A DNA stretch of 64,000 nt, taken from NCBI GenBank assembly GCA_020627825.1, contig JAHDGD010000005.1, positions 1 to 64,000 on the forward strand. The letters are read 5' to 3'. Within the stretch, counting starts at the first letter, position 1; each line of letters begins with the position of its first letter. The DNA comes from Saprospiraceae bacterium. GTDB taxonomy: Bacteria; Bacteroidota; Bacteroidia; Chitinophagales; Saprospiraceae. The translations under genes and the position numbers were made by a program. The notes under the pieces were generated by a model that searched no databases, was not told the DNA's origin, and saw only the letters and a list, made by a program, of their open reading frames with translations. Shown here in pieces: positions 3,557 through 35,854 of this stretch.

Positions 3557-5026
3557 TTATAATTCTTTCCGTAACCTTGCAACTGGAATATTCAATTGTT
3601 CTCTGTATTTCGCAACTGTTCTTCGCGCAATACTATACCCACTAACTTCTAGTAATTCTTTTAACTTTTCGTCAGAGTATGGCTTTCGTTTATTTTCTCG
3701 AGAAACAATATCTTTTAAAATATTTTTGACTTCAAGTGTTGATACTTCCTCTCCTTCTTGTGTCGTTACAGATTCGGAAAAGAACGATTTCAATTTACGA
3801 GTACCGAATTCTGTCTGCACAAATTTACTGTTCGCAACCCTTGAAACTGTTGAAATGTCCAAACCTGTAATTTCAGCTATATCTTTAAGTATCATTGGCT
3901 TAATTCTACGATCATCACCTGTCAAGAAAAAGTCATATTGAAATTGCATAATGGCATACATCGTAGAGTAAAGCGTATGATGCCTTTGTTTGATGGCGTC
4001 AATAAACCATTTAGCGGAATCGATCTTCTGCTTTATAAACATGACAGCATCTTTCTGCGATCTATTAGATTTATTACCTTTTTGTGCGTCTTTGTAGGTT
4101 TTAATCATCTCTACATACTGATCGTTTATTTTAAGATCAGGGGCATTTCGATTGTTTAGAGATAACTCAAGCTCTCCTTCTCTGTTTTTTATAAAGAAGT
4201 CAGGCAAAATATATTGGGTACGGGAAGAGGACACTTCTGAAACCGCCATCGCTGGTTTTGGGTTCAACCCAATAATAACATCAATAGCTTCTTTTAATTC
4301 CGATTCACTTAAGAAAAGATTTTTCTTAAGTCTTTCGTAATGTTTCTTGGTAAATTCAGAAAAATGATTTTCGATGATTTTCTGAGCGAAAATGTATTTT
4401 TTTTCTGGGTATCCTTCAATGTTTTTTAACTTGAGATCCATCTGGATACGCAGACATTCTTGTAAATCTCGAGCCGCAACTCCGGGAGGATCAAACTGTT
4501 GAATTTTTCCAAGTACCTCAAGAACGGTGTCTTTTTCTACTTCAATGTTTTGTGAAAAAAGTAAATCATCAATAATGGATTCAGGATCTCTTCTCAAATA
4601 CCCATCTTCATCAATAGAACCAATAATTTGTTCAGCAATAATATCTTGTTCTTCATTGGGAAGATCAAGCATACCTAGCTGCCGGTCAAGATAATCGTGA
4701 AAACTATTTTGAACTACAACTGGCGCTTTATAGTCTTCGTCAGAATGACTGAACGAATCCTTTAATTTATAACTTTGAGGATCATCTTCAATGTACTCGT
4801 TGATATAATCATCCAACTCAAACGCTTCCTCTTGCTGGTCCTGGTCATTGTCTAAATCGATCACTTCGGCATAATCATCGCCCTCCTCAAGAGCGGGATT
4901 GCTCTCCAGTTCTTCCTTGATCCTTTCTTCAAGTGAGGTTGTGGGGATCTGCAGGAGTTTCATAAGCTGTATCTGCTGGGGAGACAGCTTTTGCAACATT
5001 TTTTGACTAAGACTCTGCTTTAACAT
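3557..5026 (-). CDS. rpoN: RNA polymerase sigma-54 factor
   Basis: A 489-residue sigma-54. The Gln/Leu-rich activator-interacting region I is at the N-terminus (LSQKMLQKLSPQQIQLMKLLQIP), an acidic region II follows, then the core-binding domain and a C-terminal DNA-binding domain ending with the RpoN box ARRTVAKYRE (about residues 467-477), which reads the -24 promoter element. Region II is very rich in Asp/Glu. Transcription by this sigma needs AAA+ enhancer-binding proteins; none is encoded in the window. The gene is divergent from the aminopeptidase gene at 5215 and heads the minus-strand FKBP/yebC run. Confidence 0.97.
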   Translation of the reverse strand: MLKQSLSQKMLQKLSPQQIQLMKLLQIPTTSLEERIKEELESNPALEEGDDYAEVIDLDNDQDQQEEAFELDDYINEYIEDDPQSYKLKDSFSHSDEDYKAPVVVQNSFHDYLDRQLGMLDLPNEEQDIIAEQIIGSIDEDGYLRRDPESIIDDLLFSQNIEVEKDTVLEVLGKIQQFDPPGVAARDLQECLRIQMDLKLKNIEGYPEKKYIFAQKIIENHFSEFTKKHYERLKKNLFLSESELKEAIDVIIGLNPKPAMAVSEVSSSRTQYILPDFFIKNREGELELSLNNRNAPDLKINDQYVEMIKTYKDAQKGNKSNRSQKDAVMFIKQKIDSAKWFIDAIKQRHHTLYSTMYAIMQFQYDFFLTGDDRRIKPMILKDIAEITGLDISTVSRVANSKFVQTEFGTRKLKSFFSESVTTQEGEEVSTLEVKNILKDIVSRENKRKPYSDEKLKELLEVSGYSIARRTVAKYREQLNIPVARLRKEL

Positions 5027-5119
5027 CGGTTTAAGTTTACAAGCAAGTATTTATGTAACACGAATTACTTACTTAGCGTTCTAAAAAATTATATCTTTTT
5101 GGGTTTGTGTAGCTTTCGT

Positions 5120-5158
5120 TACTTTTGATGCTACATTGCTATGAGCAATGCAAATATA
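5120..5158. promoter_or_regulatory. Divergent rpoN / aminopeptidase promoter region
   Basis: TACTTTTG at 5120-5127 on the plus strand and TATATTTG on the minus strand (5151-5158) both fit the Bacteroidota -7 consensus TAnnTTTG and point at the aminopeptidase and rpoN genes respectively. Between them lies an inverted repeat, CATTGCT, 3 nt, AGCAATG (5134-5150), which would overlap the rpoN start point. The -33 elements are not convincing. Confidence 0.4.
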
Positions 5159-5214
5159 AAGAATATGAACAACATATTATAAAATTTTATAATATGTTTT
5201 ATTAAATTGGCTAT

Positions 5215-6993
5215 ATGGACACGGTAAACAATAAAATTAGTAAGCTTAGAACTCAATTAAAAGAAGCAGATCTTGACGCTTTCATTATTCCTTCTAGCGA
5301 TGCTCATCAAAGTGAATATGTTGCGGCTTTTGCCAATGTACGAGAATGGATTAGTGGATTTACGGGTTCAGCAGGTACCGTTATCATTACCCAAGATCAT
5401 GCAGGCTTATGGACAGATTCTAGATATTATTTGCAGGCAGAAACAGAGTTAAATGATTCTGAAATGTTCCTACATAAGATGGGAAACAGAGGAGTAATGA
5501 GTTGGATTTCATGGTTAAATGAGCAGTTTACAACTGACGCCAAAATTGCATTTAATGGTCAATTATTTACTAAAAGAGGGTATGAATTTATAAAGAAATC
5601 GCTTCATTCAAAAATGGAATTAATTACTGCTTTTGATCCCATTAACGCTATATGGGAGGATCGACCTGAACGACCCACAATGCCTATTTTCGAGCACCCT
5701 TTGCAATATGCGATCACATCTCGAAAAGAAAAAATAGAGGCTTTACGAAGTGGATTTATGGATAATGCAGATCGATATATTGTATCAGCATTGGATGATA
5801 TTGCATGGTTATTTAACTTAAGAGGTAATGACATCGACTTTAATCCAGTATTTTACGCATATGCAATCATCAGCAAGGAGGATGTCATTTTATTTTGTGA
5901 TGCCGATAAAATACCAACTTTACTTACGGAACAACTCCATCAAGATGGCATCGAGATAAAAGCGTATGATTTGTTTTTACCGTATGTCAATCACATTTCT
6001 AGTGAAGATAAAGTATTCATTGATCCTTCTGATATTAGTATTAGTTTATATAGGGCTGTAAACGCCCAAAAAGTGGAAGGAACAAATATTGTCCGTTCGT
6101 TGAAAGGAGTAAAAAATGAAGGGGAGTTATCACATGTTCGCAATGCTATGGAAAAAGACGGGGTTGCATTACTTCGTATGTATCGTTGGCTTGAGAAAGA
6201 GCTTGATGAGCATACAGTAACAGAAGCTGAAGTTTCGGATAAAATTCAATACTTCAGGTCTTTAATGGATGGCTATATAGGGGAATCTTTTCCACCAATT
6301 GTAGGGTATAAATCAAATGGAGCCATCATTCACTATAGACCAATGCATGGTCAATCTGCTTCTATTTCGAAAGAAGGAATGTTATTAATTGATAGTGGAG
6401 GACAATATATTGATGGTACAACCGATATCACTAGAACCATATGCTTCGGAACACCTACTAAAGAACAGAAAATAGCTTATACATTGGTGTTGAAAGGTAA
6501 AATCGCAATCGATCAGCTTATTTTCCCACAAGGAACTACAGGATATCAAATGGATATTTTAGCCAGAAGTGCGCTGTGGTCTGAAGGATTGGATTATGGA
6601 CATGGGACTGGACATGGAGTAGGATATGTACTCAATGTTCATGAAGGCCCTCAAGGTATTTCTCAAGTATTTAATCCGAAATCAAAACACCCTATGGAAG
6701 TGGGCATGATCACTTCCAATGAACCTGGATTTTACAAACAAGGAGGTTTTGGTATTCGAATTGAAAATTTAATTGCTACAAAATCGGTAAAAAATACTGA
6801 GTATGGACAGTTTTTGGGTTTCGAAACCCTTACTTTATTTCCTATTGCTACGAACCTTATTGATTCTACTTTACTAACAAGACCAGAAGTGAACTGGTTA
6901 AACAGTTATCATCAAAAGGTGCAAAAAAGACTCAGTCCACATTTAAATGAGGAAGAAAAAGGATGGTTAAAACAAAGATGTAAAGCGATATAA
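5215..6993 (+). CDS. Xaa-Pro aminopeptidase (M24B, aminopeptidase P family)
   Basis: A 592-residue cytoplasmic metallopeptidase that removes an N-terminal residue preceding proline. It has the long three-domain layout of the eukaryote-like aminopeptidase P: two creatinase-N-type domains, the pita-bread catalytic domain (about residues 310-530) and a C-terminal extension. All five metal ligands can be seen: two Asp in LIDSGGQYIDGTTDITRT, His in GHGTGHGVGY, Glu in SNEPGFY and Glu in GIRIENL. No signal peptide is present. It is monocistronic by context, divergent from rpoN. Confidence 0.93.
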   Translation: MDTVNNKISKLRTQLKEADLDAFIIPSSDAHQSEYVAAFANVREWISGFTGSAGTVIITQDHAGLWTDSRYYLQAETELNDSEMFLHKMGNRGVMSWISWLNEQFTTDAKIAFNGQLFTKRGYEFIKKSLHSKMELITAFDPINAIWEDRPERPTMPIFEHPLQYAITSRKEKIEALRSGFMDNADRYIVSALDDIAWLFNLRGNDIDFNPVFYAYAIISKEDVILFCDADKIPTLLTEQLHQDGIEIKAYDLFLPYVNHISSEDKVFIDPSDISISLYRAVNAQKVEGTNIVRSLKGVKNEGELSHVRNAMEKDGVALLRMYRWLEKELDEHTVTEAEVSDKIQYFRSLMDGYIGESFPPIVGYKSNGAIIHYRPMHGQSASISKEGMLLIDSGGQYIDGTTDITRTICFGTPTKEQKIAYTLVLKGKIAIDQLIFPQGTTGYQMDILARSALWSEGLDYGHGTGHGVGYVLNVHEGPQGISQVFNPKSKHPMEVGMITSNEPGFYKQGGFGIRIENLIATKSVKNTEYGQFLGFETLTLFPIATNLIDSTLLTRPEVNWLNSYHQKVQKRLSPHLNEEEKGWLKQRCKAI

Positions 6994-7058
6994 GAAAAGA
7001 AGAAAACAACAAAGCTTATAATGACCTTCGATAATTTCTTGTAAAGTATAGAATTGAT

Positions 7059-7066
7059 TATCTTTG
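7059..7066 (+). promoter_or_regulatory. -7 promoter box for the 42-residue membrane protein
   Basis: TATCTTTG matches the Bacteroidota TAnnTTTG box, 18 nt ahead of the ATG at 7085. A TTG at 7039-7041 lies 17 nt upstream of the box, an acceptable -33 spacing. This supports expression of the small gene that follows. Confidence 0.5.
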
Positions 7067-7084
7067 CGATTCAAATCGATACAT

Positions 7085-7213
7085 ATGGGACATCATACAG
7101 ATTATGGTAAAAAAGGGGCATACTTTCTAGGTTTTCTAGGGTTTGTTCTATTGATTATTATCTTATTGATATGGGTTTATTCTAAGAATTCAGAATTTCT
7201 TCCTATTCAATAA
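7085..7213 (+). CDS. Small single-pass membrane protein (42 aa)
   Basis: This short open frame encodes a His/Lys-containing N-terminus (MGHHTDYGKKGAYF), one hydrophobic helix of about 20 residues (LGFLGFVLLIIILLIWVYS) and a short tail. It begins with ATG and sits 18 nt after a good -7 box, which together make it a credible gene rather than chance. By the positive-inside rule the Lys-bearing N-terminus should be cytoplasmic. I do not recognise a family; small helices of this type are often accessory subunits of membrane complexes, but nothing near by suggests a partner. It lies between the aminopeptidase and nitroreductase genes. Confidence 0.6.
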   Translation: MGHHTDYGKKGAYFLGFLGFVLLIIILLIWVYSKNSEFLPIQ

Positions 7214-7270
7214 CCTCTTCTTACATTTTTCTTTTAGATGAACTTTCTGAAAGTTCCGCTCATATTGTAG

Positions 7271-7290
7271 TAAGTTAAAGGTTTAACTTA
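7271..7290. promoter_or_regulatory. Perfect inverted repeat upstream of the nitroreductase gene
   Basis: TAAGTTAAA, two bases GG, then TTTAACTTA: 9-nt arms, 24 nt ahead of the start codon. Size, symmetry and position suit an operator for a dimeric winged-helix repressor (MarR/HxlR type often control such flavoproteins). No regulator gene is adjacent, so the partner is unknown. Confidence 0.45.
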
Positions 7291-7314
7291 AAGCAATAGT
7301 TTAAAATATCATTT

Positions 7315-7914
7315 ATGGAGTTTCTAGACTTAATGAAACAACGCTATACAACTAAGCAATATGATGCATCTAAAAAGTTGAAGAAAGAGGATGTCGAAAA
7401 GTTGAAACAGATTTTACAACTTTCCCCTTCTTCTTTAAACAGTCAGCCTTGGAAATTCACGTTTGTATCAGATCAGGCTACTAAGGAAATCCTAGCAGAA
7501 CATTCCATGCACAATGCTGATCGCGTTATAAAATGTGATACGGTAGTTGCATTTAGTAGAATCGACGATTTGGCTTATTTCGAAGAGCAAATCAATAGAG
7601 AATTACCACAACGTCAGCTTGATTATTATTACAATAAGCTAAAACCGAAACCGATTGAAGAAGTGAAGAATTGGTTTAGCAGACAATTACATATTTCACT
7701 TGGTGTTTTTGTTAGTGCTTGTGCAATGATGGGAATTGACCATACGCCTATGGGTGGAATTGTGCCCGAGCAATACAATAAAATTCTTGGCTTAGACTCT
7801 TTTCATACTGACTTTGCAGTATGCATAGGATATCGCGACGATAATGATTTTAATCAACCTCACCTTATTCCGAAAAAGCGTGTAGATCTTGATAAGATCA
7901 TCCAGTCGATTTAA
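7315..7914 (+). CDS. NAD(P)H-dependent nitroreductase family flavoprotein
   Basis: A 199-residue FMN enzyme of the NfsB-like nitroreductase superfamily. The N-terminal RYTTKQYD and SPSSLNSQPWKF segments are the FMN phosphate and ring contacts, and GIDHTPMGGI in the C-terminal half is the second conserved block. Members are homodimeric, cytoplasmic, and reduce nitroaromatics, quinones or flavins with NAD(P)H. The physiological substrate cannot be told from sequence. A perfect 9+9 inverted repeat lies just upstream of the start and may be its operator. The next gene (GT2) starts 63 nt downstream. Confidence 0.88.
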   Translation: MEFLDLMKQRYTTKQYDASKKLKKEDVEKLKQILQLSPSSLNSQPWKFTFVSDQATKEILAEHSMHNADRVIKCDTVVAFSRIDDLAYFEEQINRELPQRQLDYYYNKLKPKPIEEVKNWFSRQLHISLGVFVSACAMMGIDHTPMGGIVPEQYNKILGLDSFHTDFAVCIGYRDDNDFNQPHLIPKKRVDLDKIIQSI

Positions 7915-33332: not shown

Positions 33333-33340
33333 TATATTTG
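33333..33340 (+). promoter_or_regulatory. -7 box, candidate promoter of the polysaccharide locus
   Basis: TATATTTG fits TAnnTTTG and lies 21 nt ahead of the ATG at 33362. It contains the TTG at 33338 that could otherwise be read as a start. The -33 partner is uncertain (a TTTG at 33306-33309 is 23 nt upstream, rather far). Confidence 0.4.
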
Positions 33341-33361
33341 AGTAATATTTTTACTCAATCT

Positions 33362-33907
33362 ATGCTTGAAGCGCTAATTTCTTCTAAAACAAGAGTCAAG
33401 TTACTCTTAAAGTTTTTTCTGAATTCTAAGTCTGAAGGTTATCTACGAGGTCTTGAACAAGAGTTTGGCGATTCTACTAACTCCATTAGATTAGAGCTTA
33501 ATAGATTCGAAGAAGCAGGAATGCTTAAAACAGAATCGAGTGGGAATAAGAAATTCTTTAAAGCCAATACCGATCACCCACTTTTTAACGAAGTCCACAA
33601 TATTCTCAGAAAGTATATAGGAATTGATAAAATCATTGAGAAAGTGATCAATCGATTAGGAGAAGTTGAACATGTCTATCTGGTAGGATCTTTAAGCAAA
33701 GGGATAGACAATAAAATAATTGATTTAATATTTTTTGGAGAGATTGATAAAGAATATCTTGTGCGCTTGATTGATCGAGTAGAAGAGCATTTATCAAGAA
33801 AAATAAGATACATTACGTATTCTTGTAAGGATATAGAAGAAATTTTGGATCAATATCCAGAAGCTTTGCTTTTATGGTCAAAAAAAGACGAGTCAAATGA
33901 AGCTTAA
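33362..33907 (+). CDS. Winged-helix regulator with nucleotidyltransferase-like domain
   Basis: About 181 residues. The N-terminal winged helix (MLEALISSKTRVKLLLKFFL, then LEQEFGDSTNSIRLELNRFE) is followed by a degenerate MNT-type nucleotidyltransferase fold: the GS motif is present (YLVGSLSKGI), but the paired catalytic Asp pattern is weak (IIDLIFFGEID). Proteins of this type stand at the head of exopolysaccharide clusters in several Bacteroidota, directly before a UpxY gene, and are thought to be regulators of the locus. It overlaps the next gene by 11 nt. ATG at 33362 is preferred because the alternative TTG is part of a -7 box. Confidence 0.75.
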   Translation: MLEALISSKTRVKLLLKFFLNSKSEGYLRGLEQEFGDSTNSIRLELNRFEEAGMLKTESSGNKKFFKANTDHPLFNEVHNILRKYIGIDKIIEKVINRLGEVEHVYLVGSLSKGIDNKIIDLIFFGEIDKEYLVRLIDRVEEHLSRKIRYITYSCKDIEEILDQYPEALLLWSKKDESNEA

Positions 33908-34439
33908 GGAGAGGAAAGACCACATATGTGCATCTGAGAAAAAATGGTTTGCTGTATACACGAGGTATAGAGCAGAAAAGTATGTTACCGATAAATTAAC
34001 AAAGAAGGGTATTACAAATTATGTTCCCTTATTGAATTTTACAAGAGTATATAAAAGTAAAAAGCGCGAAGTGCAATTGCCTTTGATCTCCTGTTATGTT
34101 TTTGTATATATCACAAAAGAGGAATACGTAAAAGTTCTCCAAACAGAGAATGTCATCTCATTTTTAAAGATACGTGGTACTTTAATTTCTATTCCTCAAG
34201 AAGAAATTGACATTATGAAGTGGGTAGTTGGAGAGGAGATTTTAGAGAATGTCCATAATGGTCCGCTAGAAAAAGGTCAAAGAGTAGAAATAATTTCAGG
34301 TAATTTGACAGGAATTAAAGGAACTGTGGTGAAAAGAAAAAGTAAGAAATATGTTCAAGTAGCATTGGATAGTTTAGGCTATACACTTGAATTGAATGTG
34401 TCTGAAGACATGTTACAGAAGGTACATTCTTTAGCATAA
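33897..34439 (+). CDS. UpxY/RfaH-type NusG paralogue (transcription antiterminator)
   Basis: A 180-residue specialised NusG protein. The NGN domain begins KKWFAVYTRYRAEKYVTDKL and includes VPLLNFTRVYKSKKREVQLPLISCYVFVYI; the KOW motif is GQRVEIISGNLTGIKGTVV near residues 125-145. Specialised NusG proteins bind elongating RNA polymerase at an ops-like element and prevent termination across long polysaccharide operons, as for UpxY in Bacteroides and RfaH in enterobacteria. Its position at the head of a locus of over 29 kb is exactly that expected. A candidate recruitment element lies about 80 nt downstream. Confidence 0.9.
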   Translation: MKLKERKDHICASEKKWFAVYTRYRAEKYVTDKLTKKGITNYVPLLNFTRVYKSKKREVQLPLISCYVFVYITKEEYVKVLQTENVISFLKIRGTLISIPQEEIDIMKWVVGEEILENVHNGPLEKGQRVEIISGNLTGIKGTVVKRKSKKYVQVALDSLGYTLELNVSEDMLQKVHSLA

Positions 34440-34441
34440 TA

Positions 34442-34465
34442 TTTTTTGGGCTCGAGCCCAAAAAA
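34442..34465. repeat. Dispersed palindrome copy 7
   Basis: Perfect inverted repeat of 24 bp with no spacer; the arm is TTTTTTGGGCTC. The inner T of other copies is C here and the other arm carries the matching G. It lies just after the UpxY-type gene stop codon. Confidence 0.85.
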
Positions 34466-34505
34466 GGTATAAAACGTTGTAAATCAAATTTTTAATAGAG
34501 GTCTT

Positions 34506-34532
34506 TCCGCGACACTAAATGGGCGGAGCCTT
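34506..34532 (+). promoter_or_regulatory. ops-like antitermination element (candidate)
   Basis: GGGCGGAGCC at 34521-34530 closely resembles the enterobacterial ops core GGCGGTAGC (one base missing) and forms a small hairpin of GGC, GGA, GCC like the one RfaH reads in the exposed non-template strand. A second stem (TCCGC 34506-34510 with GCGGA 34523-34527) competes with it. It lies between the UpxY-type gene and the first biosynthetic gene, 10 nt ahead of ugd. Confidence 0.4.
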
Positions 34533-34540
34533 ATATCATT

Positions 34541-35854
34541 ATGAATATTTGTGTAATTGGTACTGGATATGTTGGATTAGTTAGTGGAACTTGTTTTTCA
34601 GAAACTGGTAATAACGTAATTTGTGTAGATGTTGATGAGAAGAAAGTTTCAAGACTTTCTTCTGGTGAAATCGTAATTTATGAACCTGGTTTAGAGACTT
34701 TATTTCACCGGAATTTGGAACAAGGTAGGCTGAATTTTACTACATCTCTAGAATATGGTATACAGAATGCTGATATTATATTTTTAGCATTACCAACACC
34801 ACCAGGTAAGGATGGTCAAGCTGATTTACAATATGTTCTTGATGTATCAGAAAAATTGTCAAAGTTAATAGATAGTTATAAAGTCATTGTCAATAAAAGT
34901 ACAGTACCCGTAGGCACTGCTGATAAAGTTCATCGGATTCTTGAAAAGAATCTTGATCCTTCTTTATTTGATGTAGTTAGTAATCCCGAATTCTTGAGAG
35001 AAGGAGTTGCAGTAAATGATTTTATGAAACCAGATCGAGTAGTCGTAGGGACTTCAAGTGCCAAGGCAAAAAAATTGATGAAACGCCTTTATGATCCATT
35101 TGTAAGACAAGGAAATCCTATTTATTTCATGGATGTCCGTTCAAGTGAATTAACAAAGTACGCTTCGAACTCTTATCTCGCAACACGGATTAGTTTTATG
35201 AATGAAATAGCTAATCTGTGTGAGAAATTAGGTGCTGATGTTGATATGGTTCGTAAAGGGATGGGAAGTGATTCTAGAATAGGTAAACGATTTTTATTTC
35301 CTGGGATTGGATTTGGAGGATCTTGTTTTCCTAAGGATGTTCAAGCGCTTGAATTCATTGCTGATGAAAATGTATATGATTTTAAAATTTTGAAATCTGT
35401 ATTGAATGTAAATAACAGACAGAAAGTTATTCTTTACGATAAACTTGTGAGTCATTTCGGAGATGATCTTGATGGCAAAAAGATTGCAGTTTGGGGGCTT
35501 GCATTTAAACCAAATACAGACGATATAAGAGAAGCACCTGCTTTATATATAATAGATAAGTTGCTAGAACATAAATGTGATGTTACTGTTTTTGATCCTG
35601 AAGCAATGGAGAATGTAAAATCAATTTATGGAGATCGATTAACATATGCACATAATATGTATGAAGCTGCAGAAAATGGAGATGCATTATTAATAATGAC
35701 TGAGTGGCAAGTATTTAGAACACCTGATTTTAATCAACTGAAGGAAAAAATGAACAATAAAGTAATTTTTGATGGTCGCAATTTATTTGATCTTGAGTTG
35801 ATGAAGGAACAAGGCTTTTATTATTCCAGTATAGGTCGAAAGTTAATACAGTAA
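34541..35854 (+). CDS. ugd: UDP-glucose 6-dehydrogenase
   Basis: A 437-residue NAD-dependent enzyme oxidising UDP-glucose to UDP-glucuronate in two steps. The Rossmann fold opens NICVIGTGYVGLVSGTCFSE; the catalytic Cys is in GFGGSCFPKD (about residue 261), and the C-terminal domain has WGLAFKPNTDDIREAP. UDP-glucuronate is both a sugar donor and the substrate of the UDP-xylose synthase encoded at 54055. It is the first biosynthetic gene and shares the last base of its stop codon with cysC. Confidence 0.93.
   Translation: MNICVIGTGYVGLVSGTCFSETGNNVICVDVDEKKVSRLSSGEIVIYEPGLETLFHRNLEQGRLNFTTSLEYGIQNADIIFLALPTPPGKDGQADLQYVLDVSEKLSKLIDSYKVIVNKSTVPVGTADKVHRILEKNLDPSLFDVVSNPEFLREGVAVNDFMKPDRVVVGTSSAKAKKLMKRLYDPFVRQGNPIYFMDVRSSELTKYASNSYLATRISFMNEIANLCEKLGADVDMVRKGMGSDSRIGKRFLFPGIGFGGSCFPKDVQALEFIADENVYDFKILKSVLNVNNRQKVILYDKLVSHFGDDLDGKKIAVWGLAFKPNTDDIREAPALYIIDKLLEHKCDVTVFDPEAMENVKSIYGDRLTYAHNMYEAAENGDALLIMTEWQVFRTPDFNQLKEKMNNKVIFDGRNLFDLELMKEQGFYYSSIGRKLIQ

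Follow-up and report, generated by a model that had tools for sequence, protein, structure and literature searches.

In the family Saprospiraceae, nearly all of the closely related upxY genes are followed by a conserved ops/JUMPstart-like element, which most probably is a pause and loading site for the NusG paralogue UpxY on elongating RNA polymerase. A preliminary description of the window (the whole stretch of 64,000 nt analysed here) had proposed an ops-like element between a UpxY-type gene and its operon, and this is supported by a strongly conserved element after upxY orthologues. The sequence it had placed at 34506-34532 was confirmed as GGGCGGAGCC at 34521-34530 on the plus strand, and the site does lie past the end of the NusG-paralogue gene (upxY, 33897-34439) and ahead of the first biosynthetic ATG at 34541. 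The features of the locus, in window coordinates, are:

33338-33907, plus strand: gene for an uncharacterised protein of 189 aa just 5' of upxY, a conserved partner gene
33897-34439, plus strand: upxY, coding for a UpxY-family NusG paralogue (antiterminator) of 180 aa; 131 bits with NCBIfam NF033644 (cut-off 100) and 58 bits with Pfam NusG
34442-34465, no strand assigned: TTTTTTGGGCTCGAGCCCAAAAAA, a perfect palindrome and candidate hairpin in the DNA that separates upxY from the element
34496-34517, plus strand: upstream hairpin with 5' arm TAGAG (34496-34500) and 3' arm CACTA (34513-34517), imperfect here, with family-wide covariation
34509-34513, plus strand: GCGAC box at an invariable distance from the GGC core (-13 to -9), each of its positions being 89-96% conserved among 70 elements
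34522-34533, plus strand: GGC-GGA-GCC, the ops-like core of the GNA mini-hairpin kind, with T10, T11 and A12 after it; predicted pause at position 11, i.e., 34532
34541-63689, plus strand: predicted target operon for sulfated polysaccharide biosynthesis, 27 same-strand ORFs over roughly 29 kb

The complete element extends from about 34496 to 34533, and the span reported earlier is its 3' half. GGGCGGAGCC begins 82 nt past the 3' end of the upxY ORF and ends 10 nt ahead of the first biosynthetic ATG, and no second exact copy turned up when the whole genome (4.46 Mb) was searched. The 10-mer alone is weak evidence, and the weight of the case comes from conservation. The closest named relative is an uncultured Saprospiraceae MAG. 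In the closest relative the counterpart of the upstream hairpin has perfect arms (TAGAG/CTCTA). The window copy scores 12.9 bits against the family covariance model (E about 1), and owing to this weak match and its hairpin mismatch its assignment rests on synteny with the congeners. An alternative fold of the window sequence (CCGC:GCGG) is peculiar to this copy and impossible in the congeners, and was therefore not taken as functional. A palindrome like TTTTTTGGGCTCGAGCCCAAAAAA is present in the closest relative (L002) and absent in L008. A terminator role of the window palindrome was not supported, with no T-run 3' of it on the plus strand and none called by terminator prediction.

A UpxY match was present in 55 of the 101 genomes from relatives, and the DNA 3' of upxY was taken from these relatives and aligned; with a single protein as query the locus search gave 3 loci only. 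Nearly every closely related upxY that we examined has the element 38-378 nt past its stop codon. The order of its parts across the family is a hairpin with variable arms, the GCGAC box, about 3 nt, GGCGAAGCC and then N-T-R. The core GGC-GRA-GCC occurs in all 70 model matches except for G1 (69/70) and C9 (66/70), and T11 is conserved at 97%, the 13 elements from which the covariance model was built being included in these 70. Because the elements were first collected by regex, part of the core was preset, and the model-based set and a whole-genome search served as a check. The alignment after upxY orthologues that the preliminary description had suggested as a check thus bore out the element but not the exact GGCGGAGCC, which was given up as the conserved motif. 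GGCGAAGCC is the form in most of the family, and GGCGGAGCC/GGCAGAGCC is a variant of the window's genus, with GGGC(G/A)GAGCC carried by the window and two congeners. In the three congeneric loci, 17 of the 22 columns of the element block are invariant, compared to 27 of 95 flanking intergenic columns (p 4e-5, overstated as the genomes are related). Contig 36 of this genome carries a second upxY, whose element is of the canonical form.

Some loci depart from the usual arrangement. After one upxY in G048 there is a tandem pair of elements, 82 nt apart (L044:3578-3625 and 3660-3707). In G004 (L060:2923-2965 and 4568-4619) and G026 (L052:4058-4105) the element is found upstream of a more distant upxY, as in Bacteroides, and the G004 elements upstream of upxY are of the GGATTCAGGGACGGCGAAGCCGTA type.

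The hairpin is supported by covariation. Its own arms pair better than arms swapped between species, and none of 1000 and none of 2000 permutations was as good in this alignment-free test. The model-fitted alignment, which leans towards structure, showed 45 double-sided changes against 10.9 in shuffles, and 88% of its cells were paired against at most 50% when slid. The columns of the core are nearly invariant and therefore carry little information on core pairing, and the support for the core is its conservation. The core had been described as able to form the same small hairpin as ops; a mini-hairpin is indeed possible, but with a GNA triloop in place of the GNNA tetraloop seen in ops. On G-C stems, loops of either class give extraordinarily stable single-stranded DNA mini-hairpins (PMC4686876), and the core contains GCGAAGC (family) or GCGGAGC (window), which are both GNA mini-hairpins. 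The DNA folding energy calculated for the core 9-mers is small (-0.6 kcal/mol), although the parameters used may underrate how unusually stable GNA loops are.

We also searched 298 whole genomes of the family with the covariance model. A strong element was found in 155 genomes and UpxY in 208. Both were present in 151, only the element in 4, only UpxY in 57 and neither in 86 (Fisher p 1e-30, which overstates the association since it is uncorrected for kinship, and some genomes are incomplete). Some of the 57 genomes with UpxY and no strong match have weaker copies or a distant UpxY. Strong copies usually number one to four per genome. When 119 of them were compared by position, 90 were found no more than 1.5 kb from upxY. 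All of these share its strand, and 89 are downstream of it at a median distance of 88 nt. Outside the family, no more than 3 genomes in a sample of 395 from the whole class had matches at E<=1e-5. The matches in other families at L128 and L129 look like chance and were discarded. Another of the 3, an element-like site at L130:1533 (G554), precedes the gene for a large exported protein which on visual comparison is similar to the SLBB polysaccharide exporter at L101. Diverged forms of the element may exist more widely in Bacteroidia.

Twelve loci with copies away from upxY were read, and in ten of them the next gene downstream is of polysaccharide type and on the same strand. These genes encode polysaccharide exporters (five, including the large SLBB exporter of L101), Wzc-like proteins (two, the call at L102 being made by eye), a glycosyltransferase, a sugar oxidoreductase and an acyltransferase. 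The remaining two loci have a type IIG-like methylase and a short unassigned ORF. The copy at L099:3986-4032 is strong, has a hairpin without mismatches and stands before an Eco57I/type IIG-like restriction-methylase gene (4057-7653, 1198 aa). Two genomes, G057 and G050, have no element after upxY. Their four strong copies are at other places, three of them ahead of polysaccharide genes. Since copies stand before polysaccharide operons with no adjacent UpxY detected, and since G057 and G050 have them only away from upxY, UpxY probably also acts in trans. This suggests a regulon, in contrast to the one-factor-one-operon picture from Bacteroides.

The factor encoded next to the window element is UpxY and not RfaH; it reaches 53.8 bits on the RfaH model, below the cut-off of 144.5. 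Of 47 loci, 22 (the window counted) have a same-strand gene for a homologue of the 189-aa protein 5' of upxY. This homologue has 48-84% identity in the loci other than the window and is often more conserved than UpxY itself. No Pfam or NCBIfam family matched this protein at threshold, and there were only weak PaaX/Polbeta hints. It possibly has a winged-helix and nucleotidyltransferase-like fold, and could be a partner or regulator of UpxY. Downstream of the element, the long biosynthetic cluster was described correctly, but with about 29 genes, where we count 27 plus-strand ORFs. The genes tested in this operon (UDP-sugar dehydrogenases, CysC, CysD, CysN, an aminotransferase, and acyl- and sulfotransferases) fit a sulfated-polysaccharide cluster.

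The JUMPstart-like order of the parts, together with T11 and the GNA mini-hairpin class, leads us to read the element as a pause and UpxY loading site. The polymerase would transcribe the upstream arms, and the RNA hairpin would fold behind it. The polymerase would then pause with the RNA 3' end near core position 11 (34532), and in the melted bubble the non-template GGC-GGA-GCC might fold into a GNA mini-hairpin. This could be recognised by the NGN domain of UpxY, the GCGAC box being a further determinant, and UpxY would stay on the polymerase and make it resistant to termination across the roughly 29-kb operon. Pausing, the mini-hairpin in the bubble, UpxY binding and antitermination are all steps that we infer from the sequence. 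Most closely related UpxY proteins have K or R at the position that we take to be that of RfaH K10, and this fits with a DNA contact by UpxY but is no proof of it.

UpxY might instead recognise the nascent RNA hairpin with its UGCGA loop, in place of or besides the non-template DNA core, similar to LoaP. The hairpin covaries and UGCGA is conserved in its loop, which in L009 and L011 is exactly UGCG, i.e., a UNCG tetraloop. However, the loop varies between 4 and 13 nt in length, and most loops are longer and not closed as UNCG tetraloops, though UGCG is conserved. Furthermore, the GGC-GRA-GCC core and T11 are better conserved than the hairpin and stand in the ops register. We find RNA recognition unlikely. 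A structured, covarying leader upstream of biosynthetic operons could also be a cis-regulatory RNA (a riboswitch, an attenuator or the site of another protein) that merely adjoins upxY. This is improbable given the tight genome-level co-occurrence with UpxY, which includes G057 and G050, and as the leader has neither a ligand-sized fold nor an Rfam match.

In the window, a mere 10 nt separate the core from the ATG, as might be expected if the element served the first biosynthetic gene as a promoter or in translation initiation. Across loci, however, the distance to the next gene ranges from about 10 to 250 nt, and the element is strand-specific and hairpin-forming, unlike the Bacteroidota promoter boxes known to us, which makes such a role very improbable. 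Chance similarity or a dispersed repeat would be in line with a short GC-rich palindrome for which 0.26 copies are expected in the window when one mismatch is tolerated. Yet the copies are mostly found beside upxY or polysaccharide genes and are absent from most genomes that have no UpxY, and this family-wide distribution refutes chance or a repeat, to which we give next to no credence.

As a putative pause and UpxY loading site, the element closely parallels JUMPstart/ops. In E. coli ops (GGCGGTAGCGTGC) the polymerase pauses at U11, the non-template strand forms a hairpin via C3:G8 and RfaH reads the loop including the flipped T6 (PMC5995543). The layout of JUMPstart in Rfam (RF01707) is a 5-bp hairpin, 2 nt and GGCGGTAGCGTG (ops), and we confirmed a JUMPstart upstream of rfbB in E. 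coli C. A match to RF01707 in E. coli C scores 61 bits. Both elements have a short hairpin, a spacer of 2-3 nt, a GC-rich core able to form a mini-hairpin and T11 followed by a purine, and both stand before long polysaccharide operons and have a dedicated NusG paralogue. The core and T11 are in the ops register (GGCGGTAGCGTG vs GGCGAAGCCNTR). As in JUMPstart, a hairpin stands immediately upstream of the core; throughout the family it covaries and leaves about 3 nt to the core, though it is imperfect in the window copy. The window operon has the element upstream on its coding strand. By model test the element is not a member of RF01707, as the covariance model gave no match in the window or in eight element loci (E<=10 and E<=1), and no Rfam model matches these sequences. 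The ops core GGCGGTAGC with its T6 was not found; the window has GGCGGAGCC and most relatives have GGCGAAGCC. The earlier statement that one base is missing compared to the ops core is literally right, since removing T6, the base RfaH reads, from GGCGGTAGC yields GGCGGAGC. Without T6, the Saprospiraceae core (GGCGAAGCC/GGCGGAGCC) would close C3:G7 over a GNA triloop, one base shorter than the GNNA kind of loop in ops (GC-GGTA-GC). The hairpin loop of the Saprospiraceae element also differs in carrying the GCGAC box, and its factor is UpxY, encoded beside most copies.

The preliminary description knew of no defined recruitment sequence for UpxY-type factors in Bacteroidota. This calls for correction, since UpxY recruitment is already known from experimental work in Bacteroides, published by Saba and co-workers in 2024. 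There, UpxY is reportedly recruited via paused polymerase and via non-template and upstream duplex DNA, with nascent RNA hairpins helping. A passage in PMC12691694 cites UpxY contact with the upstream duplex. The Saprospiraceae share with Bacteroides a factor of the UpxY family, and a paused polymerase, recognition of the non-template strand and the upstream duplex, and aid from nascent RNA hairpins are predicted for them. Their site differs in usually being placed after upxY, whereas the Bacteroides site is in the leader before upxY, and in having one consensus common to the whole family. Moreover, the gene after upxY in the window is not upxZ but a UDP-glucose/GDP-mannose dehydrogenase gene, and the copies elsewhere suggest action in trans. 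LoaP, another NusG paralogue, binds a UNCG RNA hairpin (PMC12691694). Its dfn/mln leader hairpin in Bacillus likewise has a conserved loop, but LoaP reads the UNCG-tetraloop RNA and reportedly showed no specific ssDNA site, whereas conservation in the Saprospiraceae is dominated by the ops-like core. The d(GCGAAGC) mini-hairpin is known as a chemical structure, and we know of no link between it and UpxY recruitment; the Saprospiraceae core contains such GNA sequences.

The family-wide consensus, the likely regulon, the place after upxY and how closely the element parallels JUMPstart/ops appear to be new. The consensus is a compact one for a predicted UpxY recruitment site outside Bacteroides, and being family-wide it makes UpxY targets predictable from sequence. 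We tentatively suggest that non-template GNA/GNNA mini-hairpins after an RNA hairpin could be a general, convergent or ancient loading code for NusG paralogues, and that a single UpxY in Saprospiraceae could act in trans on a regulon of several operons, perhaps with a restriction-modification gene among its members. The layout in common with JUMPstart/ops, to which the likely pause position and a GNA/GNNA mini-hairpin belong, suggests that phyla far apart load their specialised NusG factors by one shared design.
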